Assembly (NCBI GenBank): GCA_905182815.1
Contig: CAJJCX010000004.1
Span: 248,001 to 312,000, forward strand
Source: an uncultured Candidatus Thioglobus sp.
GTDB lineage: Bacteria > Pseudomonadota > Gammaproteobacteria > PS1 > Pseudothioglobaceae
Direction of reading: 5' to 3'
Length of the DNA: 64,000 nt
In this document: in pieces, positions 32,631 to 59,164 of the stretch
How positions within the stretch are numbered: the stretch's first letter is position 1
Layout: each line of letters opens with the position of its first letter
Made by a program: the position numbers and the translations under genes
The notes under the pieces: generated by a model
What the model was told of the DNA's origin: nothing
Databases searched by the model: none
The model's input: only the letters and a program-made list of their open reading frames with translations

Positions 32631-32642
32631 CTGGAGAACATT

Positions 32643-34823: not shown

Positions 34824-34830
34824 TAAATAA

Positions 34831-35400
34831 ATGCTATCTAGGCCAGCAAAGCGAGATTTAAAACATAATAGAGTCATCGAAGGAAAGGGCTATAAAAGAG
34901 ATGATGGGCTTTGGGACGTTGAGGTATTCCTAGTTGATAGTAAAACTTATTCATTTGAAAATATGCATAGAGGCTATATAAGTGCAGGAGAGCCACTTCA
35001 TGATATGGCTGTAAGATTAACTCTAGATGACGACAGGAAAATTATCGATATAGAGGCAGTAATAAATGCATCCCCATACAATATTTGCCCGCAAGCTGTA
35101 CAAAATTGCCAAAATTTAAAAGGTGAGTATTTAATTTCAGGCTTTAACAGGAAGGTTATCAAAGCTATGGGTGGTGAAAAAGGATGTAGGCATATTACTG
35201 ATTTATTGGCTTATGCAGGAACGATTGCTTATCAAACACTTTGGAAAGAGAAAACTGGCGGCAAAGCCAATACTATTTCTTTAGAGGAAGCCAAATCGAT
35301 AGAAAAGAAATTTACAAACTCTTGTTTTGCATTTAAGAAAGATGGAGAGGTTTATAATCAGTACAAAGAAATATTAATAAACAAGATAGAGAAAAGTTAA
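34831..35400 (+). CDS. DUF2889-family protein
   Basis: A 189-residue soluble protein of unknown function matching the DUF2889 pattern (GKGYKRDDGLWDVEVFLVD, MHRGYISAGEPLHDMAVRLT, GGEKGCRHITDLLAYAGT). Conserved Cys and His residues (CPQ, C-R-H) could bind metal, which is inference. It lies between the nitronate-monooxygenase-like gene and fadD; members of this family recur next to acyl-CoA metabolism genes, so a link to acyl-CoA handling is plausible. No signal peptide or membrane segment is seen. Confidence 0.8.
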   Translation: MLSRPAKRDLKHNRVIEGKGYKRDDGLWDVEVFLVDSKTYSFENMHRGYISAGEPLHDMAVRLTLDDDRKIIDIEAVINASPYNICPQAVQNCQNLKGEYLISGFNRKVIKAMGGEKGCRHITDLLAYAGTIAYQTLWKEKTGGKANTISLEEAKSIEKKFTNSCFAFKKDGEVYNQYKEILINKIEKS

Positions 35401-35422
35401 TTACTAGAATAAGGAGAAAAGC

Positions 35423-39713: not shown

Positions 39714-40499
39714 ATGAGTGAACTTGTTGCCCTTCTGCTGCTTTTAGGCGCATTTTCTGGATTTTTAGCTGGTCTATTGGGGGTTGGTGGGGGGCTAATA
39801 ATTGTTCCAGCTTTGCTATATCTTTTGGCACCATCCGTGGACCAGTCAATCTTAATGCATACTTCAATTGGAACTGCTTTGGCGGCTATTGTTTTTACTT
39901 CTATTTCTAGTCTTTATGCGCATCAAAGGCACGGAGCAATACTTTGGGATAATTTTAAAAAGTTAGCCCCTACAATTCTACTTGGGTCTTTTACTGGCGC
40001 CCTATTAGTAAAATATATGAGCTTTGATTTTCTAAGGCTATTTTTTGCATTCTTTGAGATTAGTGTTGCTTTGATTCTATGGTTTGGGGTTACTGCATCA
40101 AGTCATGCTGATAATTTATCTAGATGGGCTTGGTCAATAACTGGGTATTTTATTGGTCTAATTTCTGCTATGGTTGGAATTGGTGGTGGAACTATGACAA
40201 CACCATTTTTGGTTTATAACAATGTAAATATTAAAAATGCTATTGCAACCTCTGCATCTGTTGGGATGCCAATTGCAATTGCTGGCAGTATTGGTTTTAT
40301 GATTACAGGCTCAAGTCAAGCCCTTCCAACTGGTGGAATTGGATTTATCAATTTTGAAGCGCTTGTCGCTATTGTCGCTACGAGTATTTTTTTTGCGCCA
40401 CTAGGAGCAAAGGTAACCCATGCTGTTGATAGTAAAAAACTTAAAAAAGGGTTTTCAATTTTTCTAGGTTTTTTAGCTGCTATGGTTCTATTTTATTAA
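39714..40499 (+). CDS. TauE/SafE-family membrane permease (first copy)
   Basis: Inner-membrane protein of 261 residues with about eight hydrophobic segments. Both family repeats show the Gly-rich signature GLLGVGGGLIIVPALLYL and AMVGIGGGTMTTPFLVYN. The family moves small anions such as sulfite, sulfoacetate or other organic acids, mostly outward; the substrate here cannot be told from sequence. It stands alone between tdk and the convergent msrB. Confidence 0.87.
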   Translation: MSELVALLLLLGAFSGFLAGLLGVGGGLIIVPALLYLLAPSVDQSILMHTSIGTALAAIVFTSISSLYAHQRHGAILWDNFKKLAPTILLGSFTGALLVKYMSFDFLRLFFAFFEISVALILWFGVTASSHADNLSRWAWSITGYFIGLISAMVGIGGGTMTTPFLVYNNVNIKNAIATSASVGMPIAIAGSIGFMITGSSQALPTGGIGFINFEALVAIVATSIFFAPLGAKVTHAVDSKKLKKGFSIFLGFLAAMVLFY

Positions 40500-45194: not shown

Positions 45195-45722
45195 ATGGAT
45201 AATGAAATATATCTTAAAAGAAAGTACCAATACTTTTCTCTAGAGGACAAGCTTAATACTCCTCTAGAGTTATATCAAGCTGAAGTTCATCCAGATTGGA
45301 TTGACTACAATGGCCATATGAGCGAGTCATTCTATTTGTATGCTTTTGGCGATGCTTCAGATGCTTTATTTCAATACATTGGGGTTGATAATGACTATCG
45401 CTTAGCAGGCAAGTCTTTCTATACTGTTGAAACGCATATAAACTTTTATTTGGAAGTTTCAAAGGGAGAGCCTCTTAAGTTTACTACTCAATTACTTGGT
45501 TTAGATGCAAAAAAGCTTCATATTTTTCATCAAATGTTCCATGCTGAAAGTGGTGACTTATTAGCTACAACTGAGCAAATGCTTGTTCATGTAGATATGA
45601 ACAAAGGGAAAGCATGCCAGATTGAATCAACTGTTGAAGATATACTTTTAAAGATTTGGGGATATCATAAAAAATTGTCTACACCAAGGCAAAAAGGCCG
45701 CATTATGGCGATTAAAAAATAA
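45195..45722 (+). CDS. Hot-dog thioesterase, probable betainyl-CoA thioesterase
   Basis: A 175-residue acyl-CoA thioesterase of the 4HBT fold. The signature VHPDWIDYNGHMSESFYLYAF (Asp37, Gly40, His41) is the active-site loop, and the family with DYNGHM recurs beside or fused to L-carnitine dehydrogenase, where it hydrolyses betainyl-CoA to glycine betaine. Here it opens a four-gene set with an acyl-CoA dehydrogenase, a CoA ligase and CaiD, which supports that role. A general acyl-CoA thioesterase is the alternative. No signal peptide. Confidence 0.78.
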   Translation: MDNEIYLKRKYQYFSLEDKLNTPLELYQAEVHPDWIDYNGHMSESFYLYAFGDASDALFQYIGVDNDYRLAGKSFYTVETHINFYLEVSKGEPLKFTTQLLGLDAKKLHIFHQMFHAESGDLLATTEQMLVHVDMNKGKACQIESTVEDILLKIWGYHKKLSTPRQKGRIMAIKK

Positions 45723-45751
45723 AGTAAGTTAATTAAATTGTAGGAGTAGAG

Positions 45752-46909
45752 ATGGATTTTGGCCTTTCTAATGAGCAAGAAATGATTATCGATTCAGTTA
45801 AAAGTTTCGTGGAGCAAGAGCTTTATCCTCACGAAGATGAGGTTGAACAAAGTAATAAAATTAACAAACACCTAGCTGAAAATATCAAAAAAAAGGCAAT
45901 CGATCAAGGTCTTTATGCTAGTAATATGCCAGAAATACATGGAGGTGGGGGTCTTGATACTTTGACTTTATGCCTTTTAGAGAAGGAGTTAGGTAAGGCA
46001 AATTTTGGCCTTCAGTATATTGTCGCAAGACCTAGTAATATATTGCTGGCTTGCCAAGGAGCACAAATTGAAGATTATTTAATTCCAACGATTCGAGGAG
46101 ATAAGGTTGAATGTCTTGCAATGACAGAGCCTAACGCAGGGTCAGATGTTCGATCTATGCAGTGCAAGGCAGAGAGAGATGGAGAGTTTTTTGTAATTAA
46201 TGGCTCAAAGCATTTTATTAGTCATGCGGATGTGGCCGACTACGTTATCTTATTTGCAGCTTCTGGAACTGAGAAGACTTCCAGAGGAGAGAGGAAAAAA
46301 ATAACTAGCTTTTTGGTGGATATTGGTACCTCAGGGTTTTCTGTAGAGCCTGGATACAAAAGTGTTTCTCATAGGGGATATCATAACTTTATTCTTAATT
46401 TTGATAATTGCCGTGTCCATGAATCTCAAGTATTAGGTGAGGTAGACCATGGATTTGATGTGGCAAATGAGTGGCTTGGCGCTACGCGATTATCAGTTGC
46501 AGCAATGTGTCTTGGCAGAGCTGAAAGAGCCCTGCAAATTGCAACAGAATGGGCTGCAACGCGTGAACAATTTGGTCAAAAGATTGGTAAATTTCAAGGA
46601 GTTTCTTTTAAGCTTGCTGATATGTCAATGGAGCTTCATGCTGCAGAACTATTAACTTTAAAAGCTGCATGGAAGGATACGCAAGGAGAAATGACTAATA
46701 GTGATGCTGCAATGGCAAAACTGAAAGCTACAGAGACTCTTGCAATGATTTCTGATGAAGCCATACAAATACTTGGAGGTATGGGTCTAATGGAAGAGCT
46801 GCCTTTGGAAAGAATATGGCGAGACCATCGAGTTGAACGAATTTGGGATGGTACGAGTGAAATTCAAAGACATATCATTTCAAGGTCACTACTAAGACCA
46901 TTTGAGTAG
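45752..46909 (+). CDS. Acyl-CoA dehydrogenase, probable gamma-butyrobetainyl-CoA dehydrogenase
   Basis: FAD-dependent dehydrogenase of 385 residues with the usual three domains: LAMTEPNAGSDVRSMQCKAE, then ATREQFGQKIGKFQGVSFKL, and the C-terminal IQILGGMGLMEELPLERIWRD. The family's catalytic Glu position (EGTSEIQ in most members) reads Asp366 here (WDGTSEIQ). Flanked by the thioesterase and the CoA ligase, and upstream of CaiD, it is inferred to desaturate gamma-butyrobetainyl-CoA to crotonobetainyl-CoA. A branched- or medium-chain substrate is possible. Electrons would go to ETF, not encoded here. Confidence 0.8.
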   Translation: MDFGLSNEQEMIIDSVKSFVEQELYPHEDEVEQSNKINKHLAENIKKKAIDQGLYASNMPEIHGGGGLDTLTLCLLEKELGKANFGLQYIVARPSNILLACQGAQIEDYLIPTIRGDKVECLAMTEPNAGSDVRSMQCKAERDGEFFVINGSKHFISHADVADYVILFAASGTEKTSRGERKKITSFLVDIGTSGFSVEPGYKSVSHRGYHNFILNFDNCRVHESQVLGEVDHGFDVANEWLGATRLSVAAMCLGRAERALQIATEWAATREQFGQKIGKFQGVSFKLADMSMELHAAELLTLKAAWKDTQGEMTNSDAAMAKLKATETLAMISDEAIQILGGMGLMEELPLERIWRDHRVERIWDGTSEIQRHIISRSLLRPFE

Positions 46910-46915
46910 TCCTTT

Positions 46916-48973
46916 ATGAGTAGAACTAATTTGAGTCGGCTAATATCACCAAAATCAATAGCTGTGGTTGGAAATCGTGGTGCAAATTTTGCGATTAGAG
47001 AAAGTAAAAAATTAGGCTATAACCATAAAATTTGGGCAATCCATCCAACTCTAGATTTTCTTGAGGGAATTAAGTGTTACAAAGATATTAAAGATCTTCC
47101 TGAGGCTCCAGATGCTACGTTTATAGCAGTTAATGCCGAGTCTGCTATAGCTATAGTTGCTGATTTAAAGTCGATTGGAGGTGGTGGAGCAGTTTTGTAC
47201 GCTTCTGGTTTTGGAGAGCTTGGAGAAAAAGGAATAAAACGAAATCAGAGGCTGGAAGAGGCTGCTGATGGAATGCCATTAATTGGACCGAACTGTTATG
47301 GCTTTATCAATAGTCTTGATGGAGTTGCATTGTGGCCTGATGTTCATGGTTGTGAGCCAGTTTTGAGTGGGGTTGCAATTATTACACAGAGTGGCAATAT
47401 AGGCCTTAATATTACAATGCAATCGATCGGGCTTCCAATTGCCTACATGTTTACTCTTGGCAATCAAACAAATACAAATATTGCAGATATTATTAATGCG
47501 ATGCTCGATGACAATAGAGTCAATGCAATAGGCCTGCATATCGAAGGAATTTCCGATATCAAATCGTTTGATGTTGCTGCTCGAAGAGCCCTTGATAAAA
47601 AAATTCCAATTGTTGCAATTAAGTCTGGACGTACTGATGTTTCTGCAAAGATTGCACTCAGTCATACCAGCTCAATGACAGGCTTGGACCAACTTTTTAA
47701 TGTATTTTTTGAGCGACTCGGGATTGCTAGAGTGGATACTGTTCCAGAGTTCCTAGAAACTTTAAAATTGCTAAGTATTTTAGGAACCATTGACCATAAC
47801 GGTGTTGCATCTATGAGCTGCTCTGGAGGAGAGGCAGGAATGATGGCGGATTTGATTGATGGTCTGGATATCACCTTTCCTAGCCTTGATGATCTTCATA
47901 AAGATAGAGTTAAACTAGCGCTTAATGATTATGTCGAGGTTGATAATCCACTTGATTACCATACCTTTATTTGGGGTGACCGAAAAAGAACTTCAAAATG
48001 CTTTAAGCAGATGATTAGTGGCAATTTTGCTGCAACAATGTTGTTATTGGACTGGCCAAGAACGCAAGAATCAGAACAAAAAGATTGGGACTTAACTTTA
48101 TTGGCTCTCTCTGATGCGATTTCTGGGACACGTGAGAAGACTATAGTATTAGCTTCAATTGCAGATTGTATGCCTAAAAGGATTATTAAGGAATGCCAAA
48201 AATATGGTATCGCGCCAATGATAGGGCTGGATATTTGCTTGAAGGCTCTTAATCACTCCTATAGAATTGGACTCGCTTTTCAGAAAAGCTCAATGCAATC
48301 GATAGAGATATTACGCTCATTATCTCACCCTTCTAAAATTTCAACTCTAACAGAGTTTGAAGGCAAGAAATTGTTGAAAAAATATGGAATTCCTGTGCCA
48401 GATGGAAAAATTATTAGTAGCACCTCTGAGGCTTTAATTGCCGCTGAAAAAATACATTACCCTATAACACTGAAGGTTTCAGATGTTGAGTTGGTACATA
48501 AAACAGAGCTAGGTGCTGTTATGCTAAATATAAATGATCCTTTAGCGCTAGAGAAGGCTTGCCAGGATTTATTTAAGATTGGTTCATCCCTTCTTATTGA
48601 AAAAATGGTGCAAGATTCAGTTGCTGAATTGATTATTGGTGTTGGCCTTGACCCAATTTTTGGAAAATATATTATTATTGGAAGTGGTGGAATTTTGGTG
48701 GAGCTTTTCAAAGAAAGTATTCCACTTCTATTTCCAGTTAATAGGAAGGATGTTTCTCTAGCCTTATCAAAATTAAAAGCTTTTCCTTTAATTAACGGTT
48801 ATAGAGGTAATCCACAAGGAGACGTTGAGATGATTATTGATTGCGTAATGGCTACTGTCAAACTAGTTAGTGAAAATGATATTGATGAATTGGATATTAA
48901 TCCATTATTAGTATTGAAGAGAGGCAGCGGAGTTATTGCTGTCGACACTCTTATTAAGTTAAACTTAGGCTAA
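46916..48973 (+). CDS. Acyl-CoA synthetase (NDP-forming), alpha-beta fusion
   Basis: A 685-residue single-chain CoA ligase of the acetyl-CoA synthetase (ADP-forming)/Pat-like superfamily. Order: CoA-binding Rossmann domain ([22 protein letters not shown] near 120), succinyl-CoA-ligase-like domains with a candidate phosphohistidine in [12 protein letters not shown] near 250, and a C-terminal ATP-grasp domain from about 470 ([37 protein letters not shown]). No acetyltransferase domain is seen. In this set it would activate a betaine acid to its CoA ester, in place of CaiB/CaiC; the substrate is inferred from neighbours. Confidence 0.82.
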
Positions 48974-48996
48974 TCAGCCTTTTAATTGGGAAATTT

Positions 48997-49782
48997 ATGA
49001 ACAACAGTGTTAATTGCAAAATCTATGATGACGTAATGTTGATTACCTTGGACCGACCAAAAGCTAATGCAATTGATGCTAAAACAAGTCATGCGCTGGG
49101 TGATGCATTTATCAGTTTTAGAGATAATAATAATTTACGGGTGGCTGTGATAACGGGGGCTGGTGATCGTTTTTTTTGCGGTGGCTGGGATTTAAAAGCC
49201 GCATCTGAAGGCGAGGCAATTGATGCAGACTTTGGGCTTGGTGGTTTTGCAGGACTAACGGAGTTGTGGGATCTTGATAAACCTGTCATTGCCGCAGTTA
49301 ATGGACTAGCAGTTGGAGGAGGCTTTGAGTTAGCTTTAGCAGCTGACCTTATAATTGCAGCAGATACTGCAGAGTTTTTTGTTCCAGAAGCGACCTTAGG
49401 CATTATCCCTGATAGTGGGGGCGTCTTAAGATTGCCACGACGATTGCCATCTGCAGTGGCGATGGATATGCTTATGACAGGTCGACGAATGGCCGTAGAT
49501 GAAGCAAAACACTTTGGCCTAGTTAATCGAAGCTGTACTTTAAGTGAATTAGAAGATTCAGCAATAGAGTGGGCACATCAAATTGCTAAGTCTGCACCTC
49601 TTTCTCTGGCAGCAATAAAATCTGTATTAAGGCAAACAGACCAAATGGATTTAGAAAGTGCTTATAAAGTTATGCGATCTGGTGAGATCCAGGCTTATCA
49701 GAAAATGTTGAACTCTGAAGATGCAAAAGAAGGTCCTAAAGCTTTTTCTGAAAAGAGATCTCCAAGCTGGAAAGGAAAATAA
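48997..49782 (+). CDS. caiD: Crotonobetainyl-CoA hydratase (carnitinyl-CoA dehydratase) CaiD
   Basis: Crotonase-fold enzyme that interconverts crotonobetainyl-CoA and L-carnitinyl-CoA. The 261 residues match E. coli CaiD in length and in long identical stretches ([49 protein letters not shown]). Glu111 ([11 protein letters not shown]) and Glu131 (VPEATLGI) fall at exactly the residue numbers of the catalytic pair in E. coli CaiD. This is the best marker that the set at 45195-49782 handles carnitine or related betaines. Twenty-three bases after the ligase gene. Confidence 0.9.
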
Positions 49783-49862
49783 TCATTATAAATACAACAG
49801 ATTTTGAACAAGCTAGAACTGGGTATAATTTATTTGATGAATTAAGTTAGGATATAGATTCA

Positions 49863-50174
49863 ATGAAAAGATATTTTTTAACATCAGTCACAATTGCTTT
49901 AGCTATTTTTTCGCTAAGTTCAAATGCCAATAGTGAAGGCGAAGCAATGTATAGTGCTTTGGGCTGTGTAAGTTGTCATGGCCAGAATGGACATTCGACA
50001 GATGAAAATGCACCTTCTTTAGCTGGAAAAGATGCTGATTGGATTGTTCAGCAATTAGAATATTTTCAGTCAGGTGAGCGTCAGAACTCATACATGAATG
50101 CAATGGCTCCAATGGCTGAAGGATTTGAACGCTCGATTGCTGAATATCTTTCTATTCAAAATTCTAAATACTAA
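49863..50174 (+). CDS. Periplasmic monohaem cytochrome c
   Basis: A 103-residue class I cytochrome c. Signal peptide at about 1-23 (KRYFLTSVTIALAIFSLSSN, cut near NANS), one haem site CVSCH near residue 38, and a distal Met probably in AMAPMAEG. The layout and PSLAGKDADWIVQQLEYFQSG resemble one half of cytochrome c4, which follows as the next gene. It should shuttle electrons in the periplasm, the partner unknown. A TATAAT box lies at 49824-49829 upstream. Confidence 0.88.
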   Translation: MKRYFLTSVTIALAIFSLSSNANSEGEAMYSALGCVSCHGQNGHSTDENAPSLAGKDADWIVQQLEYFQSGERQNSYMNAMAPMAEGFERSIAEYLSIQNSKY

Positions 50175-50204
50175 TATTAGTCGATAAAACTGTCCTAATT
50201 GAAG

Positions 50205-50234
50205 TTTACGATACCATTATTTTTCACGTATAAT
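50205..50234 (+). promoter_or_regulatory. Candidate promoter for the cytochrome c4 gene
   Basis: TTTACG at 50205-50210 and perfect TATAAT at 50229-50234, spacer 18, ahead of the ATG at 50261, with GGAG ten bases before that start. The -35 is weak. Confidence 0.4.
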
Positions 50235-50260
50235 TTCCTTGAATTTTTTGGAGATTAAGA

Positions 50261-50900
50261 ATGAAAAAGACCATTATTGCTTTAGCTTATATATTAATTG
50301 CTTCTTTCAGTAGCCCTATTATTGCTGCTGGTGATGCTGAGGCAGGTCAAGCAAAGACTGCAACATGTATGGGTTGCCATGGTCTGGCAGGTAATAGCAC
50401 TATTCCTACTTTTCCTAAGTTAGCTGGACAAGGTGAGGCTTATCTTATAAAACAATTACAGCACTTTAAGTCAGGTGAAAGAAAGAATGCAATGATGAAT
50501 GGTGTTGCTGGAATGCTCTCTGAGCAAGACATGATGGACATTGCAGCTTACTATTCAATCCAAACTATAAGTGAAAACAGTGCGAATGCAGATGCTGAAA
50601 CTCTTGAGCTTGGTCGTAAGATTTATGTTGGTGGAAAAATGGATACTCAAACGACAGCTTGTATTGCTTGTCATGGAGCTAAAGGTTTAGGTATTCCAAC
50701 TGCAGGCTTCCCTGCAATCAGCGGTCAGCATGCAGCATATACTAGCTTCACAGCTAAAAGCATTCCGTCAATATTCCATAAATGAACAAACGGGCTCCAC
50801 AGATGTTTCTAGAGCAAATGAGATGATGGTGAATGTTGCTAAAGGTTTAACGACAGTTGAAATTGAAGCTTTGTCACAATATATAGCTGGACTTCATTAA
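50261..50900 (+). CDS. Cytochrome c4, dihaem (one frameshift)
   Basis: Periplasmic or membrane-attached dihaem electron carrier, often feeding a terminal oxidase. Signal peptide at about 1-22 (cut after IIAA), first haem CMGCH near 38 with PTFPKLAGQGEAYLIKQLQHF, second haem CIACH near 131 with PTAGFPAISGQHAAY. The frame then breaks near 50747: removing one T restores QLKAFRQYSINEQTGSTDVS and the C-terminus ending YIAGLH at 50900, with the second distal Met in ANEMMVNVA. Corrected length is 212 residues, normal for c4. Error in the sequence is likelier than truncation. Confidence 0.86.
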
Positions 50901-50918
50901 ACTAGAGCTGGTGATTTT

Positions 50919-51107
50919 ATGAAAAGAAAAATTGGGATAGTAGCCCTTTCCCTATCATTTTTGGCAGTACTCTGGCTTTTGCTTGGTATGGCTAATTTGG
51001 TGCCACTTTTGATAGAGTTACCGAACGAAACAAGTATAAGAGCGCATGCCTCACTAGCAGTAATTTTCTTGTTGATAGGTTCTGCGGCTTTTTGGAACGA
51101 AGATTAA
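50919..51107 (+). CDS. Small two-segment membrane protein (62 aa)
   Basis: Unrecognised small protein with two hydrophobic segments (about 6-28 and 43-58) and a short loop between. It starts 18 bases after the corrected end of cytochrome c4 and is followed by two more tiny membrane proteins on the same strand. The steady spacing suggests one transcript. No cofactor motif is seen; a role as an accessory subunit of a respiratory complex is only a guess from position. Confidence 0.65.
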   Translation: MKRKIGIVALSLSFLAVLWLLLGMANLVPLLIELPNETSIRAHASLAVIFLLIGSAAFWNED

Positions 51108-51128
51108 TTTTTAAAGAAGGATGTAATT

Positions 51129-51305
51129 ATGATGAAAACGTCAGATATATGTATTTTAATGTCAGTGGGTGTTGCATTTGTAACAACTGCTTTTCTTTGG
51201 TTTCAAGGAGTGGACACAAAGCAAGAAGCATTGTTTACCGCAACTTGGATTCCATCTATTTTAACGTTCGCTATTTATTTTAAAATAATAGCCAGGAAGG
51301 ACTAA
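51129..51305 (+). CDS. Small two-segment membrane protein (58 aa)
   Basis: Unrecognised. Starts with a double ATG preceded by a good AAGGAT Shine-Dalgarno sequence. Two hydrophobic segments (about 6-24 and 36-54) end in the basic KIIARKD, which would place the C-terminus in the cytoplasm. A longer reading in another frame across this interval lacks a ribosome site and is not preferred. It sits between two other tiny membrane proteins downstream of the cytochromes. Confidence 0.65.
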   Translation: MMKTSDICILMSVGVAFVTTAFLWFQGVDTKQEALFTATWIPSILTFAIYFKIIARKD

Positions 51306-51307
51306 TT

Positions 51308-51421
51308 ATGGATGATTCACTAATATTCTTTACTGGGTTATTTTGCTTTGCGCTTGCTTTAGTAGGAGCGGTAATGACTGTTGTAGAATTTAAACGTCTA
51401 GAGTCAGAAGATAAAAAATAA
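51308..51421 (+). CDS. Small single-segment membrane protein (37 aa)
   Basis: Unrecognised 37-residue protein beginning MDDSLIFFTG, with one membrane helix (about 5-27) and a charged tail (KRLESEDKK). A strong AGGAAGG ribosome site stands before the ATG, three bases after the previous stop. Size and shape recall the tiny helper subunits of terminal oxidases such as CydX or CcoQ, but there is no sequence proof of kinship. Confidence 0.65.
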   Translation: MDDSLIFFTGLFCFALALVGAVMTVVEFKRLESEDKK

Positions 51422-51514
51422 CATTGGGCTGTTAAGTCTTTTAATAGAGTAGTCTAGTTTTAAATAAGAGCTTTTATAGGCACTATTAAAATTATAAACG
51501 CGTAACTTTTGAGC

Positions 51515-52303
51515 TTAACCCATTCTCTCTGTGTTGCCGTCGACTGTCATTATTTGACCAGAAATTTTGCTTGCTTCATTTGATATTAAAAAGCTTGCCA
51601 TGTTTGCTATATCTTCTTTATCTACAAATGTTTTAAGAGAAACCATTGCCTCATAGTCTTCTTTTACCTCATTTTCAGAAGAGCCTATTGATTTGGCTCT
51701 TGCTTTAATAACACGATTAATTCTATCGCCTGATACTGACCCTGGGCAAATCGCGTTTACTCTAATATCGAATTCACCGAGCTCCATGGCGAGTGACTTT
51801 GTAATTCCAATGATGGCCCATTTACTAGCAGCGTAAGGAGTCCTTAGTGGAAATCCAAATAGTCCAGCTGTTGAAGATAGATTAATAATTGAGCCCCCCT
51901 TATTCTTCTTTAAAAGCGGAATTGCAAACTTAGTGAAGTAGAAGTGGCTATTTAAATTTATATCTATCGTTTGCCTCCAGTCCTCGATGGTTAAATCTTC
52001 CATTGGTCCAGTGGGACCAGCAATACCAACATTATTTATGAGAACATCAATGCTTGTAACTTTTTGAGAAAGGGCTTTAAAGTAAGACTTAACTGACTCC
52101 GGATTCCCAGCGTCAACATTTTCAATAAATACCCTTTTATTGAAAAGCGGATGCTTATGAATTTCATCAATTTTTTGCTGATTAATGTCAGATAAGTAAA
52201 CTGTGTGGCCTTGATCTATCAAAACATTAGCCATACACCAGCCAAGTCCATCAGCTGAGGCTGAAATGATTATATTTTTACTTGCAAAATTACCCTGAGA
52301 CAT
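51515..52303 (-). CDS. Short-chain dehydrogenase/reductase in the proXWV operon
   Basis: NAD(P)-dependent oxidoreductase of the classical SDR fold, 262 residues. Catalytic Ser in INLSSTAG and YxxxK in PYAASKWAI are present, as is the NNVG motif. The cofactor-binding motif is unusual: where TGxxxGxG is expected the sequence reads SASADGLG, with the first Gly replaced by Ala. Its start overlaps the proV stop by one base, so it is co-translated with the betaine transporter and probably acts on an imported hydroxylated betaine or a product of it, such as carnitine; the substrate is inferred only. Confidence 0.82.
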   Translation of the reverse strand: MSQGNFASKNIIISASADGLGWCMANVLIDQGHTVYLSDINQQKIDEIHKHPLFNKRVFIENVDAGNPESVKSYFKALSQKVTSIDVLINNVGIAGPTGPMEDLTIEDWRQTIDINLNSHFYFTKFAIPLLKKNKGGSIINLSSTAGLFGFPLRTPYAASKWAIIGITKSLAMELGEFDIRVNAICPGSVSGDRINRVIKARAKSIGSSENEVKEDYEAMVSLKTFVDKEDIANMASFLISNEASKISGQIMTVDGNTERMG

Positions 52304-53337
52304 TACTTTGTTTTTGTTAAGGCTTCAGAGAGTTCGTCAGATGAGATGTACCCAGTTGTGCTTCCATTTTTATCAATAACTTCAATAGTTGATCTATCTT
52401 TCAAAACCTTAGGGACTAGCTCTTCAATAAAGGTATCTTCATCATACTTGTATGTTGATGATGGGTTAATGCCGGAGGTATCAAATTTATCAATTTTTGT
52501 CATTACAGTCTTCGCTCTTAAAACTTTTGAGCGATTAACGTCTTTAACAAAAGCTTTAACGTAATCATCTGCTGGATTGAGGATAATATCTTCTGGGCGA
52601 CCAACTTGAACCAATCGTCCGCCATTTAGGATTCCTATATGATCGCCAAGTTTAAGGGATTCATCGAGGTCATGAGTAATAAAGACAATCGTTTTTTTAA
52701 GTTTCGATTGAAGGTCAACTAGTTGGGTTTGCATTTCACTTCTAATCAAAGGATCTAAAGCGCTAAACGCTTCGTCCATTAGAAGGATTTGTGGGTCAGT
52801 TGCAAGAGCCCTTGCAAGTCCAACTCTTTGCTGCATTCCGCCAGATAGTTGAGCTGGGTATTGGTTTTCAAATCCTTGGAGCCCTACAGCATCAATTTGA
52901 CCTTGGGCAATTTCTTTTCTCTTATCTTCAGGGACCTCCTGAATTTCAAGTCCATAAGCCACATTTTCAATGATTGTCTTGTGAGGGAATAATCCAAAGC
53001 GCTGAAAAACCATACTCATGGTTTTTTTTCTAAATTCTAAAATTTCTTTCTCATCTAAACTTAATACGTCGACATCATTTACAAGAACTTGTCCTGCAGT
53101 AGGATCAATTAATCTATTAATGTGCCTAATCAAAGTTGACTTACCTGAGCCAGATAGGCCCATGCAAACAAAAATTTCACCTTCTTCGATAGATAATGAA
53201 ACGTTATCTAAGCCAACAGTATGTCCAGTCTCTTCTAGAACTTGTTCTTTATCTGCCCCATTTTGGACCATTGATAAAACCTGGTCAGGCTGGGGACCAA
53301 ATATTTTATAAATATTTTTAATTTCGATTTTTGACAT
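52303..53337 (-). CDS. proV: Glycine betaine/proline-type ABC transporter ATPase ProV
   Basis: Cytoplasmic ATPase of a QAT-family importer, 344 residues. Walker A MGLSGSGKST near 65-74, Q-loop FQRFGLFPHKTI, signature LSGGMQQRVGLARALA, Walker B LLMDEAFSALD, switch His in FITHDLDE. The family-typical N-terminal insert (IFGPQPDQVLSMVQNGADK) is present. The C-terminus has about one CBS domain rather than the two of E. coli ProV (400 residues), so osmotic gating may be altered, in line with a nutritional role. Between proW and the SDR gene. Confidence 0.93.
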   Translation of the reverse strand: MSKIEIKNIYKIFGPQPDQVLSMVQNGADKEQVLEETGHTVGLDNVSLSIEEGEIFVCMGLSGSGKSTLIRHINRLIDPTAGQVLVNDVDVLSLDEKEILEFRKKTMSMVFQRFGLFPHKTIIENVAYGLEIQEVPEDKRKEIAQGQIDAVGLQGFENQYPAQLSGGMQQRVGLARALATDPQILLMDEAFSALDPLIRSEMQTQLVDLQSKLKKTIVFITHDLDESLKLGDHIGILNGGRLVQVGRPEDIILNPADDYVKAFVKDVNRSKVLRAKTVMTKIDKFDTSGINPSSTYKYDEDTFIEELVPKVLKDRSTIEVIDKNGSTTGYISSDELSEALTKTK

Positions 53338-53346
53338 AATAGGGGT

Positions 53347-54348
53347 TTATTCTGGTGGTTTATTTCTATCTTGTATTCTTTTACCGTAAGCCTGCGTAAT
53401 TCTATCTAACACAATTGCTAATAGAACAATTGCAAGACCGGCTTCAGTTGCTTTTCCAACGTTTAGCTGTTGAAGTCCAAGTAAAACTTCATCGCCAAGG
53501 CCTCGAGTTCCAATCATTGAGGCAATGACAACCATAGCTAGTGCCATCATTGTGCACTGGTTGATTCCTTGCATAATGTTCGGTAGGGCAAGAGGTAACT
53601 GTACCCCAAGTAATTTTTGTTTCGGGCTAGCCCCAAATGCTTCAGCTGCTTCAATAACTTCGGTATCAACTAGTGTAATTCCAAGATCAGTCAATCGGAC
53701 TAATGGGGGAACCGCATAAATAACGGTTGCAATAATTGCTGGAACAGCACCCAATCCAAACAGCATAATTCCTGGGATTAGGTAACAGAAGCTTGGGATT
53801 GTTTGCATTAAATCAAGAACTGGCAGTATTGCATTTCGAACTTTATTATTTCGAGACATTGCAATACCCAATGGAATACCAATAATAATACAAATAATAA
53901 TTCCAATTATCATAATAGAGGTTGTTTCTATGGCTTTATCCCAAAACTTTGGATGCAGGAAGCCTATAAAAAATGTACAGAACCCAACAAAAACGGTGGT
54001 TCCTATTTTTCTGCCACTAGAAAAGAAGACAACTGCAACAACGAGTGCAATGACTACTGGCCAAGGTAAAACGATTAAGAATTTCTTAAGAGATAGGATT
54101 GCACCAAGAAGAAAATCGTTGATTACTTCGAAGTAAATTCCATATTTTTCATTAAAGACTTTAAAGCCGTCATTAATCCATTTCATTAGAGGAATATCTA
54201 ACCATTTAGGCCAGTCATAGAGCCAACTTAAATCAGTAAATAGCTCCATAACACTATCGGGCTTTCTTTTCGATGAGTTATAACTTACGACTAAAAGCCA
54301 TACAAAGAATATTGGGAATGTAAAGTATGTGAGAATTTTTCTTATCAT
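53347..54348 (-). CDS. proW: Betaine-type ABC transporter permease ProW
   Basis: Inner-membrane permease, 333 residues from the ATG at 54348; a longer reading starting at 54378 would begin inside a terminator hairpin and is rejected. An N-terminal part with two or three segments precedes the BPD-type core (TSIMIIGIIICIIIGIPLGI, EAAEAFGASPKQKLLGVQLP with the EAA loop that docks ProV). It lies after proX and before proV, ten bases from the latter. Confidence 0.92.
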   Translation of the reverse strand: MIRKILTYFTFPIFFVWLLVVSYNSSKRKPDSVMELFTDLSWLYDWPKWLDIPLMKWINDGFKVFNEKYGIYFEVINDFLLGAILSLKKFLIVLPWPVVIALVVAVVFFSSGRKIGTTVFVGFCTFFIGFLHPKFWDKAIETTSIMIIGIIICIIIGIPLGIAMSRNNKVRNAILPVLDLMQTIPSFCYLIPGIMLFGLGAVPAIIATVIYAVPPLVRLTDLGITLVDTEVIEAAEAFGASPKQKLLGVQLPLALPNIMQGINQCTMMALAMVVIASMIGTRGLGDEVLLGLQQLNVGKATEAGLAIVLLAIVLDRITQAYGKRIQDRNKPPE

Positions 54349-54361
54349 AATGATTTTGATG

Positions 54362-54392
54362 AAAAAAAGAGCCCACAAGTGAGCTCTTTTTT
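54362..54392 (-). terminator. Intercistronic terminator/attenuator between proX and proW
   Basis: AAAAAAGAGC (54363-54372) pairs perfectly with GCTCTTTTTT (54383-54392), with an inner CAC/GTG stem in the loop. Read on the minus strand it ends in a T run after the GC core, so it can stop transcripts leaving proX. Partial read-through would leave the binding protein more abundant than ProW and ProV. The hairpin is symmetric and could work on both strands. Confidence 0.75.
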
Positions 54393-54406
54393 ATATTAAG
54401 ATTAAC

Positions 54407-55424
54407 TTATAGAGCTCCAGATACTTTAGCAGCAACGTCTGCTGGTACCCAAGATTTCCATGAATCATCATTCGCTAAGTACTCCATTGCAGTTAGCTCC
54501 ATATCACCATCTGACTCATCTTCATAGAATGCAAGTAGTCTGTTAACTTGCGCAGTTGGTATGCTATAAGCCTCTAAAAATGCAGTCTCTGCAGGGTGTG
54601 AATCCGCCCATGAAGAAAGAACTGACTTGTCTAGTGACATGTCTCTGTACTCAACTCCACAAGTAGGTACCCATGCATCCTCTTCCATTGGCTTTGATGT
54701 CTTCAACAACAACTTGCATAGATGCCCAGCACTCAGAGTTAAATGGAGGCTCTGCTAGTCTAACTAGATCAACCTTACCCATTAGACCAGTTGGCGCCCA
54801 ATAGTAAGTAAAGATTGGTTGCTTTTTAGCAAACGCACCTGCGATTGCTGCATCTAGTGCTCCACCTGAACCTGGATCAAAGTTAGTATAGTATTTATCT
54901 AGTCCATAAGCTTTTTGTTTAACAAGGTTAATTGTGTAGCAAGTCCAGCCACCAATACAGCTTGTCATTCTTCCCATTGATGGGTTTTCAGGATCACTGA
55001 ATAACGCAGCAATTTCTGGCCTATTCATATCTAGAACATTTGTAAGATTGTACTTATCAGCAGTTGCTCTATCAACATAGAATGCTTGCTGAGAGTCAGG
55101 AGTATTTACTCCTAGGTTTCTCACAGTTCCATCTGCTTCATGACCATCAAAAGTATCTTTAATGTTGTCATACCAAAGCTCAGTAACTACATCAAGCTGT
55201 CCATCATAGTGCGCAGCCATAATAGGTGTTGTACTTCCTTTAGTTATACTAACTTCACACCCATAACCATGCTCCAAGATGAAGCCAGCAATAGCAGTAT
55301 GAATATTAGCACTACTCCAGTCAAAATCAGCTAGTCTTGCCTTACCGCAGTCAGCACTAACAACTCCTGGCATTAGAGCAACTGAAATAGCTGAGATAGC
55401 TAATAGTTTATTTATTAGTTTCAT
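54407..55424 (-). CDS. proX: Betaine-type periplasmic binding protein ProX (one frameshift)
   Basis: Binds a quaternary-amine ligand in the periplasm for ProWV. Signal peptide at 1-24 (cut after VVSA), then the OpuAC fold (ITKGSTTPIMAAHYDGQLDV, SCIGGWTCYTINLVKQKAYG, PIFTYYWAPTGLMGKVDLVR). The main frame ends near 54651; from about 54705-54715 the true C-terminus continues in another frame (LLKTSKPMEEDAWVPTCGVE to DVAAKVSGAL). The repeated GTTGTTGTTG makes the exact base uncertain; removing one base gives 338 residues, the family length. Sequence error is likelier than decay. First gene of proX-proW-proV-SDR. Confidence 0.88.
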
Positions 55425-55449
55425 TTTTTCTCCTTAGGTTTTAAAACAA

Positions 55450-55472
55450 AATCCTTATTAAATATAAGGATT
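55450..55472 (-). promoter_or_regulatory. 9-bp inverted repeat in the proX leader
   Basis: AATCCTTAT (55450-55458) and ATAAGGATT (55464-55472) form a perfect inverted repeat with a five-base centre, 26 bases before the proX ATG, which itself has a strong AAGGAG site. It could be an operator for a regulator or a leader hairpin; no regulator gene lies beside it. Confidence 0.45.
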
Positions 55473-55548
55473 GATTTTTAGTATATATAAAATTTCAGTG
55501 CAAGTTGAATTATATTCGATGATTAAAAACACATATTAATAGGAAATA

Positions 55549-56310
55549 TTAAATTAATAAAACTATTCCTGCTATAAAAATTAATCCTAGAATTGTTTTT
55601 TGAAACACCTCGCCATCAATAACATGATAGATTTTCATGCCAAGAAAAGAGCCAATAATTAAAGCTGGAATAGTCAAAAGAAGGTCATAAAATATTTGCA
55701 ATGTAAATAGACCAGCGATAGCAAAACTTATAACTGCCATAATGCTTGTTATAAAAATAAAAGGTTCATAAGTTCCTCGCTGAGTATTTTTTGGTAATTT
55801 CTGCAGACTAACCCAAATTGTTGGAAATATTCCTCCAAGCGCTGCAAAGCCGCCCATAAATCCACTTATCAATCCTATAAAACGATCAATTAATTTATTG
55901 TTGTTAACTTTAACGGATAGGTTATTATTTTTAAATATTAATATTGCATAGAAAACTAAAAAAATGCCAATAGATATTTTAAATAATCTTGGGTCAGTAG
56001 TTTTTAGAAGAAGCATACCAAGGGGTATACCAATTAAACCAGAAATAACAAATGGTCTCAGTTTTGAAAAATCAAGAGTTTTTCTTAATTTAAATAATGG
56101 CCAACCCGATATCAATAAGCAAGTAATTATATTTAATGGAATTGCGATAGCAGGTTCCATTATGTGAAGCCAAAATGCATTAAGAACAAGACCACTTCCA
56201 AAGCCACTAGCACCCTGGACAAATGCTGCAGTAAATGCTCCTGAAATTAAAATTAATAAATATATTGATGGGTCAGAAATGATCTTTAAAGAATTGCCAA
56301 AATAATGCAT
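55549..56310 (-). CDS. TauE/SafE-family membrane permease (second copy)
   Basis: Inner-membrane protein of 253 residues with about eight hydrophobic segments. The first repeat reads FVQGASGFGSGLVLNAFW and the second GLISGFMGGFAALGGIFPTI, a variant of the family signature and clearly diverged from the copy at 39714. It lies upstream of proX on the same strand with about 124 bases between. Transport of a sulfonate or organic acid is expected from the family; the substrate is unknown. Confidence 0.84.
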   Translation of the reverse strand: MHYFGNSLKIISDPSIYLLILISGAFTAAFVQGASGFGSGLVLNAFWLHIMEPAIAIPLNIITCLLISGWPLFKLRKTLDFSKLRPFVISGLIGIPLGMLLLKTTDPRLFKISIGIFLVFYAILIFKNNNLSVKVNNNKLIDRFIGLISGFMGGFAALGGIFPTIWVSLQKLPKNTQRGTYEPFIFITSIMAVISFAIAGLFTLQIFYDLLLTIPALIIGSFLGMKIYHVIDGEVFQKTILGLIFIAGIVLLI

Positions 56311-56328
56311 ATGAGTATATAGATTATT

Positions 56329-56357
56329 TTGTTATTTGTATTTGATTTCAATATAAT
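56329..56357 (+). promoter_or_regulatory. Promoter for the GMC oxidoreductase gene
   Basis: TTGTTA at 56329-56334 and perfect TATAAT at 56352-56357 with a 17-base spacer, 56 bases before the ATG at 56414. It lies in the divergent gap after the TauE/SafE gene. Confidence 0.65.
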
Positions 56358-56413
56358 GACGATGTTAGGTATTTTAAATTTTGATTATCAAATGGCCCTA
56401 TTACTTCTAATTT

Positions 56414-58036
56414 ATGTCTAATTATGACTACATAATTGTAGGGGCCGGCTCCGCCGGCTGTGTCCTTGCAAATAGGCTCAGTAAAAACTCATCTAATAAC
56501 GTTTTGCTAATAGAGGCCGGTGGTTCAGATCGTCGATTCTTTATCCAAATGCCAATTGGTTATGGGGTGACTTACCATCAAAAAGCTGTTAATTGGATGT
56601 ATATGACAAAGCCAAGTCCAGAAGCTGATAATAAGCCAAGTTATTGGCCAAGAGGAAAGGTTTTGGGCGGATCTAGCTCAATTAATGCAATGGTTTATGT
56701 GAGAGGAAATCATAAAGATTTTGACCAGTGGTCTGAGATGGGGAATACAGGCTGGTCATATAATGATGTTCTGCCCTACTTCAAGAAAATGGAATCTTGG
56801 CAAAATGGTGCTGATAGTTTTAGAGGCGGTGATGGGCCATTAAATGTCTCGGAGGTGTCTGACCAGTTACACCCATTATGTAAGAATTTTTTATCTGCAG
56901 CTCAAGAGATTGGTATTAATCTTAATAGAGATATGAATGGAAAAAATCAGGAAGGAGTTGGCAACTTTCAAATCACAACTCATAAGGGTCAGCGAATGTC
57001 CTCCTCAAGAGCTTACTTGTGGCCAATAAAGAGTCGTACTAATCTTACTATTATTAAAAATGCTTTGGTTTCAAGAGTATTAATTAAAGATAAAAAGGCT
57101 TATGGAGTTGAGTATATTAAGTCAGGTAAGATTCATCAAGTGATGGCTTCATGTGAAGTTATATTAAGCGCAGGATCAATTAATTCTCCTCAGCTTCTTC
57201 AGCTATCAGGAGTAGGCCCAAAAGATGTTTTAGATAAAGCTACAGTTTCTTTAATTCATGATAGTCCAGCTGTTGGAGAAAACCTACAAGACCATTTGGG
57301 GGTTAGTTATTTTTATAAAAGCAAAGTACCAACCCTAAATGATCAGTTAAGGCCATTTCTAGGAAAGATATATCAGGGTCTAAGATATATTATTACAAGA
57401 AGAGGGCCACTGAGTTTAAGTGTCAATCAATCAGGAGGATTCATTAAGACACGTGATGGTCTTGAGAAGCCCAATATCCAGCTTTATTTTTCGCCCGTCA
57501 GTTACTCTCTGGAATCTCCTGAAAAAAGGGCAATGATGAGCCCAGATCCCTTTTCAGCAATGTTATTTGGAATTTCAAGTTGTAGCCCTCTTTCAAGGGG
57601 AAGAGTTCATATTGAAAGTAATAACCCATTAAAACCTCCAATCATTGAACCTAACTACCTTTCTCATAAAAATGACATCAGAGATTTATTAGAGGGGGTT
57701 AAGGTCCTTAGGAAGTTGGCTAAAACTGATAGTTTTAGAGAAGTTATTGGAGAAGAGTTTCGTCCTGGGCAGGAATGTCAGACTGATGAGCAAATGATTC
57801 AGCATATTAAAGATACAGTTTGGACTGTTTTTCATCCTTGTAGTACTTGCCGAATGGGCCCTGATCCACTGAAAAATGTTGTTGATAGCAATCTGAGGGT
57901 TCATGGGATCAAAAATCTGAGAGTGGCAGACGCCTCAATATTTCCTCAAATAGTTTGTGGTAATATTAATGCCGCAACTATTATGGTTGGTGAAAAAGCA
58001 TCAGATTTAATATTAGCAAGTGCAGAAAATAATTAA
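56414..58036 (+). CDS. GMC-family flavoprotein, choline dehydrogenase-like (BetA family)
   Basis: FAD-dependent alcohol dehydrogenase of 540 residues. Seen: the dinucleotide fold DYIIVGAGSAGCVLANRLS, GMC signature 1 (PRGKVLGGSSSINAMVYVRG), signature 2 (GSINSPQLLQLSGVGP) and the C-terminal active-site His in VFHPCSTCRMG with GNINAATIMVGEKASD. E. coli BetA (556 residues) oxidises choline to betaine aldehyde, and the nearby betaine genes make choline a fair guess. GMC family members also oxidise sugars, polyethylene glycols and other alcohols, and no betB aldehyde dehydrogenase lies nearby, so the substrate is open. Confidence 0.85.
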   Translation: MSNYDYIIVGAGSAGCVLANRLSKNSSNNVLLIEAGGSDRRFFIQMPIGYGVTYHQKAVNWMYMTKPSPEADNKPSYWPRGKVLGGSSSINAMVYVRGNHKDFDQWSEMGNTGWSYNDVLPYFKKMESWQNGADSFRGGDGPLNVSEVSDQLHPLCKNFLSAAQEIGINLNRDMNGKNQEGVGNFQITTHKGQRMSSSRAYLWPIKSRTNLTIIKNALVSRVLIKDKKAYGVEYIKSGKIHQVMASCEVILSAGSINSPQLLQLSGVGPKDVLDKATVSLIHDSPAVGENLQDHLGVSYFYKSKVPTLNDQLRPFLGKIYQGLRYIITRRGPLSLSVNQSGGFIKTRDGLEKPNIQLYFSPVSYSLESPEKRAMMSPDPFSAMLFGISSCSPLSRGRVHIESNNPLKPPIIEPNYLSHKNDIRDLLEGVKVLRKLAKTDSFREVIGEEFRPGQECQTDEQMIQHIKDTVWTVFHPCSTCRMGPDPLKNVVDSNLRVHGIKNLRVADASIFPQIVCGNINAATIMVGEKASDLILASAENN

Positions 58037-58054
58037 AGTTATTAAAGAATCCTT

Positions 58055-59164
58055 ATGAAGATAATTAGTATTGAAACTTTTACGAATGAATACGTCGGTT
58101 TAGTTCGCATAAGAACTGATGAGGGCGATGAAGGGTGGGGTCAAACCTCTACCTATAATTCTGATATTAGTTCTCAGGTAGTTCATAGACAAGTTGCTCC
58201 TCATATTTTAGGACTCAGTGGATTTAACATTGAAGATATAAATAGAGAGGTCTTAGAGAGAGAGCATAAGTTTCCTGGTACATACCTTTATAGAGCTTTA
58301 AGTGGAATTGATACTGCGCTTTGGGACATTAAAGCTAAGCGTGCGAACAAGAGTGTTTGCCAGCTTTTGGGCGGTGAAAAACAATCTATTCCAGTTTATG
58401 CTTCAAGTATGCAGAGAGAGATTAGTCCAGAAGCCGAGGCCGAAAGACTTCTTGCGCTAAAGGAAGCAAATGGTTATTTCGCATTTAAATTTCGGATTGG
58501 AAAAGAGTGTGGCCATGATTTTGATCAATGGCCTGGGCGAACTGAGGCAATTATAAAAGAAGTGAGAAAAGTTCTAGGAGATGATGTTGCTTTGCTTGTT
58601 GATGCAAATAGTGCTTTTAGCCCCAAAAAGGCAATTGAAGTTGGACACATGCTCCAAGATTATGGCGTAAGTCATTTTGAAGAACCTTGCCCATACTGGA
58701 AGCCAGATTGGACTCGCGAAGTTAAAAATGCACTAGATATTGATATCAGTGGCGGCGAGCAAGACAATGATATGAGAGTTTGGAGTCATATGATTGATAC
58801 TAAGGTTGTTGATATTGTTCAGCCTGATATATGCTACATGGGAGGCGTTACTAGGACACTAGAAGTTGTAAAGATGGCAGAGAAGGCAAATCTTCCTGTA
58901 ACTCTGCATTCAGCAAACCTTTCTCTAGTGACACTTTTTTCGGCCCACATTATGGGCTCTATTAAAAACCCAGGAAAATATTTGGAGTTTTCAATAGAAG
59001 GTCCTGATTACTACCCATGGCAAGATAATATTTTTTACCCAAACTATAAAATTATTGATGGGTGTCTTGAGATGATCCACAAGCCTGGTTGGGGGGTTGA
59101 AATAAATCAAGAATGGCTGTCTTTATCAGATTACAAAGTAAGCTATACAGGGTCTCGCTTTTAG
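58055..59164 (+). CDS. Enolase-superfamily enzyme (mandelate racemase/muconate lactonizing type)
   Basis: A 369-residue TIM-barrel enzyme that abstracts a proton alpha to a carboxylate. The metal ligands are visible as DAN (LLVDANSAF), the Glu of SHFEEPCPYW and the Glu of DISGGEQ. A KxR motif in FAFKFRIGK and the QPD/LHSAN pair give the Lys and His-Asp bases of the mandelate-racemase subgroup. Typical substrates are sugar acids (dehydration) or betaine amino acids (2-epimerisation). It follows the GMC gene after 18 bases and is probably co-transcribed, so the two may act in sequence. No substrate can be fixed. Confidence 0.82.
   Translation: MKIISIETFTNEYVGLVRIRTDEGDEGWGQTSTYNSDISSQVVHRQVAPHILGLSGFNIEDINREVLEREHKFPGTYLYRALSGIDTALWDIKAKRANKSVCQLLGGEKQSIPVYASSMQREISPEAEAERLLALKEANGYFAFKFRIGKECGHDFDQWPGRTEAIIKEVRKVLGDDVALLVDANSAFSPKKAIEVGHMLQDYGVSHFEEPCPYWKPDWTREVKNALDIDISGGEQDNDMRVWSHMIDTKVVDIVQPDICYMGGVTRTLEVVKMAEKANLPVTLHSANLSLVTLFSAHIMGSIKNPGKYLEFSIEGPDYYPWQDNIFYPNYKIIDGCLEMIHKPGWGVEINQEWLSLSDYKVSYTGSRF

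Follow-up and report, generated by a model that had tools for sequence, protein, structure and literature searches.

Known routes to glycine betaine

An aerobic route leading from gamma-butyrobetaine to glycine betaine was reportedly described in Sinorhizobium meliloti by Bazire et al. in 2019 (J Bacteriol). This study deals with a gene cluster at positions 45195-59164 of a 64,000-nucleotide stretch of DNA (hereafter the window; C4:248001-312000, on contig C4) in the 1.32 Mb genome, 76.8% complete, of an uncultured Candidatus Thioglobus species. Comparison with other genomes indicates that this cluster is probably part of a version of the S. meliloti-type route, from gamma-butyrobetaine through carnitine to glycine betaine, that is split over two loci.

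BcoAB of S. meliloti has been used as a gamma-butyrobetaine:CoA ligase (PMC8364193), and SM2011_c01638 of the same species is a fusion of carnitine dehydrogenase and betainyl-CoA hydrolase (PMC12482172). An island of Arctic SAR11 bacteria contains genes for carnitine 3-dehydrogenase (CDH), beta-keto-acid cleavage enzyme (BKACE), gamma-butyrobetaine dioxygenase (BBOX), a thioesterase, choline dehydrogenase (CHDH) and aldehyde dehydrogenase (ALDH) (PMC12421898). Ruegeria pomeroyi has CdhABC (PMC12478193), and its carnitine transporter is cntTUVW (PMC10130141). Given this published work on S. meliloti, SAR11 and R. pomeroyi, the pathway itself is known and the window adds a further case, from a SUP05-type lineage, that is split and includes a free thioesterase. 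Literature searches on Thioglobus or SUP05 with carnitine found no title on this route, and those on an ADP-forming butyrobetainyl-CoA synthetase and on gamma-butyrobetaine and phytoplankton gave nothing.

The window lineage has the same enzyme families as the operons of Rhizobium and Sinorhizobium, namely a CoA ligase, an acyl-CoA dehydrogenase (ACAD), a CaiD-type hydratase, a CDH-thioesterase fusion and BKACE, but here they are distributed over two loci about 220 kb apart and accompanied by an extra free thioesterase. The ligase of the window is one fused chain, whereas the name BcoAB suggests two chains in S. meliloti. A CaiD homologue is common to the window and the cai operon of E. coli; the differences from the latter are an NDP-forming ligase, a context that appears to be oxidative rather than reductive, and the lack of a CaiB-family match. 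An earlier sequence-only reading of the window had seen no CaiB, and a search of the genome, at 76.8% completeness, likewise found no type-III CoA transferase (CaiB family, PF02515; CaiC was not searched separately). The Arctic SAR11 island resembles the present system in being marine and in having CDH and BKACE, a betaine ABC transporter and a choline-dehydrogenase gene, but relies on BBOX where the window lineage would use CoA esters (PMC12421898).

The four-gene block

Gene families were assigned from Pfam/NCBIfam-type profile scans of the open reading frames (ORFs) of the window, and all genes named in the sequence-only reading were found where it had placed them. The cluster comprises a four-gene block (45195-49782) and two cytochrome c-like ORFs on the forward strand, genes for a short-chain dehydrogenase/reductase (SDR), ProV, ProW, ProX and TauE on the reverse strand, and genes for a GMC flavoprotein and an enolase-superfamily enzyme, again on the forward strand.

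The first gene of the block (45195-45722) encodes a free-standing 4HBT thioesterase (Pfam 4HBT_2), in which the DYNGHM motif reported earlier was seen as WIDYNGHM. It resembles the C-terminal domain of CDH fusions, and its sole NCBIfam match at E 0.001 is to the C-terminal part (positions 340-491 of 495, 168 bits) of the carnitine 3-dehydrogenase fusion model. It is followed on the same strand by an ACAD recognised by profile match (45752-46909), an NDP-forming acyl-CoA ligase with fused alpha and beta parts (46916-48973; CoA_binding_2, Succ_CoA_lig and ATP-grasp_5) and a CaiD-type enoyl-CoA hydratase (48997-49782), whose best NCBIfam model is crotonobetainyl-CoA hydratase. The block thus unites ligase, ACAD and CaiD-type hydratase, a combination expected of bco/cdh-type gene sets. 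The Glu111/Glu131 pair that the sequence-only reading had stressed in CaiD is exactly present, but it is the general pair of enoyl-CoA hydratases and hence not diagnostic, so it was rejected as proof of CaiD. Residue 366 of the ACAD (window 46847-46849), which we take to be the position of the catalytic Glu, is Asp in the window; among 92 loci, a set that some contigs entered twice, 67 have Asp there and 25 have Glu.

The predicted chemistry would begin with the activation of gamma-butyrobetaine to gamma-butyrobetainyl-CoA by the ligase, a putative gamma-butyrobetaine:CoA ligase using ATP and a phosphohistidine. The ACAD, as a candidate gamma-butyrobetainyl-CoA dehydrogenase, would convert the product to crotonobetainyl-CoA and pass electrons to electron-transfer flavoprotein (ETF), and the CaiD homologue, a putative crotonobetainyl-CoA hydratase, would add water to form carnitinyl-CoA. 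The free thioesterase, a predicted carnitinyl-CoA thioesterase that perhaps acts on betainyl-CoA too, would then release L-carnitine.

Among 18 stretches from relatives (L024-L041), the order thioesterase-ACAD-ligase-CaiD is complete in 13 same-genus stretches of this SUP05-type lineage. The other five comprise a continuation of one of the 13 (L025), a flank without matches (L027), two stretches cut by contig ends (L028, from another genus, and L037) and L029, which comes from another family and has the order CaiD-ligase-ACAD-CDH-BKACE. Part of the block is also found in four further short loci. The right half of the cluster, from SDR to enolase, is looser across relatives. In genome G019 (L032) the block is present, and no SDR, ProVWX, TauE, GMC or enolase gene lies between the cytochromes and the trigger factor; G014 (L038) is without ProVWX and TauE, TauE is also absent from L031, L033 and L039, and no TauE, GMC or enolase was seen in G028 (L026/L027). 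The core is therefore the four-gene block, and the transporter, TauE, GMC and enolase are separable from it; what had been proposed as a single island mixes separable modules. Downstream of CaiD, almost every same-genus stretch that extends far enough contains the two cytochrome c-like ORFs (49863-50785), L039 having only the second; neither ORF of the window matched an NCBIfam model at E 1e-15.

A second locus in the same genome

No beta-keto-acid cleavage enzyme had been seen in the cluster. The same genome nevertheless encodes BKACE (314 bits; among 14 control genomes, one contains the family) at a distance of about 220 kb, and a pathway without BKACE was rejected on these grounds. The gene adjoins a complete CDH/thioesterase fusion at C4:70.9-73.3 kb that scores above its cut-off (703 vs 592 bits), and its product shares 67-68% identity with its counterparts in two annotated operons of Rhizobiaceae. 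The bco/cdh genes are therefore not all in one operon, which the chemistry does not need. At this second locus CDH would oxidise carnitine to 3-dehydrocarnitine, BKACE would convert 3-dehydrocarnitine and acetyl-CoA into betainyl-CoA and acetoacetate, and the fused thioesterase would release glycine betaine. The acetoacetate could exit via the acetoacetate-CoA ligase of the window (37336-39024, forward strand; TIGR01217, 752 bits, cut-off 520.9; the match starts at profile position 116, the N-terminal part being absent from the ORF) and then via an acetyl-CoA C-acyltransferase, or thiolase (32643-33836, forward strand), assigned by the family profile scan. A reading of a single window can thus miss half of a pathway.

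The sequence-only reading had also suggested looking for ETF and betaine demethylases elsewhere in the genome. ETF is encoded on C1, and candidate demethylation enzymes were found: an MttB-type methyltransferase and a GcvT-fused oxidase-like protein, both about 17 kb from BKACE, and a sarcosine oxidase alpha-type (SoxA-type) protein on C1. Glycine betaine may thus be demethylated by the MttB-type enzyme and by enzymes oxidising dimethylglycine and sarcosine. In one survey, reads of mtgC, a gene of glycine betaine demethylation, were partly assigned to Candidatus Thioglobus (PMC12478193). A betaine-homocysteine methyltransferase-type gene is split across two ORFs in this genome. The stretch holding the MttB-type and GcvT-fused genes (C4:90.5-96 kb, approximately 17-23 kb from BKACE) also contains a gene for a DddP-like lyase of dimethylsulfoniopropionate (DMSP), split over two ORFs.

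Linkage to carnitine genes in other bacteria

Searching named genomes with the aligned ligases gave 463 relatives, of which the best 80 were kept, 18 with at least 60% ligase identity and 62 others. The nearest named genomes are those of the SUP05 cluster, Candidatus Thioglobus and related single-cell and metagenome genomes, some labelled Pseudothioglobaceae. Neighbours were counted in the 46 of the 62 distant loci (below 60% identity) with at least 5.5 kb upstream, 16 shorter ones being set aside; the length and identity floors were fixed in the script. In these 46 loci the ligase is accompanied by ACAD in 46, CaiD in 39, CDH in 33, BKACE in 32, both CDH and BKACE in 31 and either in 34, the corresponding numbers for all 62 being 56, 51, 37, 32, 31 and 38. 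Owners of loci with CDH and BKACE include Phyllobacterium, Mesorhizobium, Rhizobium, Kiloniella, Aestuariispira, a Comamonadaceae metagenome-assembled genome (MAG) and Streptomyces, where the arrangement is divergent. Genes of the block are thus grouped with those for carnitine in Alpha-, Beta- and Gammaproteobacteria and, partly on the opposite strand, in Streptomyces. This clustering, together with the synteny in 13 same-genus stretches, places the block beyond chance. Near-equal ACAD-ligase-CaiD blocks with the same spacing occur in L072, labelled Anaerolineae, and L073, labelled Alphaproteobacteria; this likeness may reflect a transfer or a binning error.

In the RefSeq/GenBank records the genes of these loci are named as carnitine genes. 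The annotated operons on plasmids pRetKim5d of Rhizobium sp. Kim5 and p1 of Sinorhizobium sp. B11 comprise a GlxA-type regulator, BKACE, carnitine 3-dehydrogenase, ACAD, an acetate-CoA ligase family protein and carnitinyl-CoA dehydratase/caiD, and both ligases are 42% identical to that of the window. The gene set, earlier called unusual, is therefore a known bco/cdh-type set already annotated in public records. Among 58 genomes, the present one included, the ligase (at least 540 bits) occurs in 25 and CDH (E 1e-60) in 26; both are found in 21 and neither in 28, and at genus level the two have the same distribution (3 of 30).

The identities of the genes, their conservation, their clustering in other bacteria and the presence of both halves in one genome are established. 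Since BKACE and CDH are present in the genome, 31 of the 46 distant ligase loci have both, and public records annotate the same sets, the cluster is best explained as the known route split over two loci. This agrees with the sequence-only reading, which had proposed an aerobic conversion of gamma-butyrobetaine or carnitine to glycine betaine via CoA esters, and to which BKACE, the CDH fusion, ETF and the candidate demethylation genes can now be added.

Several observations weigh against this explanation. CDH or BKACE lies near the block in none of the 18 loci of the window's own type (at least 60% ligase identity), and both are absent from 12 of the 46 distant loci, including the Oceanospirillaceae-type loci L059, L063, L068 and L069, which are arranged as in the window; the link in this lineage is therefore drawn by analogy and from co-occurrence. 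Among the 58 genomes, CDH occurs without the ligase in five, two of them more than 90% complete, and the ligase without CDH in four, all 57-77% complete. The proposed homology to BcoAB of S. meliloti is argued by way of other Rhizobiaceae ligases. The best family model of the ACAD is acryloyl-CoA reductase, far short of the cut-off (263 vs 640 bits), and the crotonobetainyl-CoA dehydrogenase model gives 194 bits against a cut-off of 540. The CaiD homologue, with 392 bits, stays under the 500-bit cut-off of the crotonobetainyl-CoA hydratase equivalog, which is also failed, with still lower scores of 320-381 bits, by all four scanned copies from operons with CDH or BKACE. Below their cut-offs are also the MttB-type methyltransferase (TIGR02369, 328 vs 525 bits) and the SoxA-type protein (1130 vs 1164 bits).

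Alternative explanations

Some of the best matches point to DMSP. The ligase would then be a DddX-type ATP-dependent DMSP lyase yielding acryloyl-CoA, the CaiD homologue an acryloyl-CoA hydratase, the ACAD an acryloyl-CoA reductase, as its best model has it, and ProX a DMSP-binding protein. The best solved relative of the ligase is DMSP lyase DddX (7cm9, 243 bits; profile E 3e-96), and that of ProX is 7yle (107 bits), the DMSP-binding RnDmpX; DmpX is listed in Candidatus Thioglobus (PMC10030565). Residues of DddX (PMC8163506) were placed by reading pairwise alignment columns and then checked in 82 aligned ligases, among which at least one contig is present twice (L032 = L071). The NDP-forming ligase family and the phosphohistidine are common to both enzymes, His292 of DddX corresponding to His250 of the window, which is kept in 82 of 82 ligases. 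The column of the DddX substrate residue Trp391, however, has His in 75 and Gln in seven of the 82, and never Trp. The catalytic Glu432, whose replacement by Ala abolishes activity (PMC8163506), falls on a variable column (Asp in 27, Glu in 22, Ser in 14, Ala in 6 and others in 13; Asp in the window) that is less certain owing to a two-residue gap, and Phe435 falls on a variable column as well. As Trp391 and Glu432 are not conserved, the identification of the ligase as DddX was rejected. Its operon partners, moreover, are carnitine enzymes and not dddB or dddC, and the genome has DddP-like ORFs and a better DmpX candidate elsewhere (on C3, 180 bits to 7yle). Because of the missing DddX residues and the carnitine operon partners, the DMSP route is considered improbable. 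Tyr348, Trp353 and Trp391 of the window ligase are invariant in all 82 sequences and could form a cation-pi site of its own.

The same chemistry might also be used anabolically, the block making L-carnitine from gamma-butyrobetaine as an osmolyte rather than mainly for catabolism, which is compatible with the gamma-butyrobetaine route as such. In all 18 own-type loci the block, which includes a thioesterase, is separate from CDH and BKACE, so that carnitine could be the end product, and in four genomes the ligase was detected but CDH was not. Those four, however, are the incomplete ones mentioned above, CDH accompanies the ligase in 21 of 25 genomes, and candidate glycine betaine demethylation genes are present; anabolic use as the principal role thus appears rather unlikely. 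The breadth of the ACAD, enoyl-CoA hydratase and ligase families, and the general nature of the Glu pair in CaiD, would also suit a generic oxidation of short-chain acyl-CoA with no tie to betaines. This is very hard to reconcile with the recurrent linkage to carnitine 3-dehydrogenase and BKACE in distant loci, with a thioesterase that matches only the carnitine fusion model, and with a separate fatty-acid set in the window at 27720-36898.

If the split gamma-butyrobetaine route is correct, a marine lineage is able to use both gamma-butyrobetaine and carnitine via CoA esters, with no oxygenase involved. The window lineage is among the abundant Arctic groups, and half of the Arctic SAR11 genomes studied carry dioxygenases for the same step (PMC12421898).

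Accessory enzymes: SDR, GMC flavoprotein and enolase

The SDR (51515-52303, reverse strand), said earlier to be built into proXWV, is a separate ORF with a one-base overlap with proV. Orthologous to an SDR found inside alphaproteobacterial carnitine operons, it is the best match of that SDR in this genome; for the copy of L077, which lies between CDH and ACAD, it scores 234 bits and the next protein 120. Of the distant loci, 12 among the 46 and 13 among all 62 have such an SDR with at least 37% identity, and these 13 are 38-46% identical to the SDR of the window, compared with 29% for another SDR of this genome. Phaeobacter sp. G2 has an SDR with 43% identity after CDH, on 19.4 kb of DNA in which queries with ligase, ACAD and CaiD had no match; this points to the carnitine half of the route, of which the SDR may be a further enzyme. 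It was rejected as a 3-hydroxybutyrate dehydrogenase (186 vs 258 and 185 vs 307 bits). It may instead be a reductase, since it passes a FabG subfamily cut-off by 5 bits (227 vs 222) and its best solved match is labelled 3-ketoacyl-ACP reductase (5unl, 192 bits).

The GMC flavoprotein (56414-58036, forward strand) is paired with the next gene. Described earlier as BetA-family, it does pass the cut-off of the choline-dehydrogenase subfamily (624 vs 605 bits) but fails that of BetA itself (538 vs 732). Its partner (58055-59164, forward strand), left unnamed in the sequence-only reading, is a mandelate-racemase-type enolase-superfamily enzyme according to Pfam and its solved homologues 3u4f, 3tcs, 3t8q and 3t9p; a literature search found no function for this family. 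The enolase occurs at E 1e-100 in 9 of 398 genomes of the phylum, the present one included. Four Kiloniella loci and a Rhodospirillales MAG likewise have the pair (59-61% identity for GMC and 68-70% for the enolase) behind CaiD. The two genes stand together in L096, L099, L102, L106 and L116, followed in L102 by an ORF that reads as aldehyde-dehydrogenase-like.

On the enolase tree the Kiloniella-type and SUP05 rows form one clade, apart from 12 other rows (SH-aLRT 100). On the ligase tree, made from 42 rows hand-picked from the 82 ligases later aligned, Kiloniella and SUP05 are far apart, and forcing them together was rejected by the approximately unbiased (AU) test (p-AU 1.6e-7) for a group chosen after inspection of both trees. 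Both trees were built by a quick method, and long rows and uneven composition were flagged in them. Their disagreement implies that the pair either was joined to two distantly related operon versions or passed from one to the other. Annotated plasmids of Ruegeria, Roseovarius, Shinella and Phaeobacter provide four further contexts with both genes, three of which also have an aldehyde dehydrogenase gene next to the enolase or close by. In these contexts ACAD, CaiD, CDH and BKACE queries had no match at E 1e-8, and ligase queries found only a weak paralogue in Ruegeria (26-28% identity). The pair was therefore rejected as simply part of the pathway, its tie to the operon is only suggestive, and it probably constitutes a separate feeder or sister pathway. 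The R. pomeroyi neighbourhood past the enolase showed nothing informative.

It is tentatively proposed that carnitine and gamma-butyrobetaine metabolism has an undescribed extension, consisting of a dedicated SDR and the GMC-enolase pair joined to SUP05 and Kiloniella operons. The SDR, which lies next to the block in the window and, in alphaproteobacterial operons, either between CDH and ACAD or directly behind CDH, would perhaps be a dehydrogenase of D-carnitine or a homologue, and the GMC-enolase pair could channel a further hydroxylated quaternary amine into the pathway. Such an extension would provide a testable substrate class for the enolase family of 3u4f, 3tcs, 3t8q and 3t9p. The cluster points to three uncharacterised companion enzymes of carnitine genes: SDR, GMC and enolase.

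Transporter and flanking genes

The reverse-strand transporter genes encode a ProV-type ABC ATPase of the betaine/proline/choline family (52303-53337; TIGR01186, 367 bits, cut-off 326.6), a ProW-type permease recognised by profile match (53347-54378) and the OpuAC substrate-binding protein ProX (54651-55424). The latter has 257 aa and is frameshifted near its 3' end, the protein continuing in another frame at 54379-54720; the four relatives examined are intact, with 338 aa. ProX is closer to the DMSP-binding protein 7yle than to E. coli ProX, and keeps six of the eight pocket residues of DmpX (W35, T64, W84, W152, Y200 and W202, that is, the equivalents of the four Trp, Thr64 and Tyr200). The other two are changed, E113 to Gln and A153 to Thr, so that the full DmpX pocket is not present. 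Four OpuAC proteins are encoded in the genome, and ProX was rejected as its DmpX in favour of the C3 copy mentioned above. The ABC transporter may import a betaine of the gamma-butyrobetaine/carnitine route or another betaine. Next to it lies a second TauE/SafE permease (55549-56310, reverse strand), assigned by family profile and present in part of the genus only; the first, a putative one, is at 39714-40499.

Other ORFs of this genome also look interrupted, among them DddP, an S-methyltransferase and the acetoacetate-CoA ligase, so the proX frameshift is likely a sequence or assembly error. In the 35423-37400 region a FadD-like ORF ends about 60-70 profile positions short, and the adjoining acetoacetate-CoA ligase is without the first 115; these are likely further frame interruptions. 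The OpuAC copy on C1 matches 4xz6 (233 bits), which we take to be TmoX, and stands beside a trimethylamine N-oxide demethylase gene at C1:183-187 kb that scores above its cut-off (1111 vs 1100 bits).

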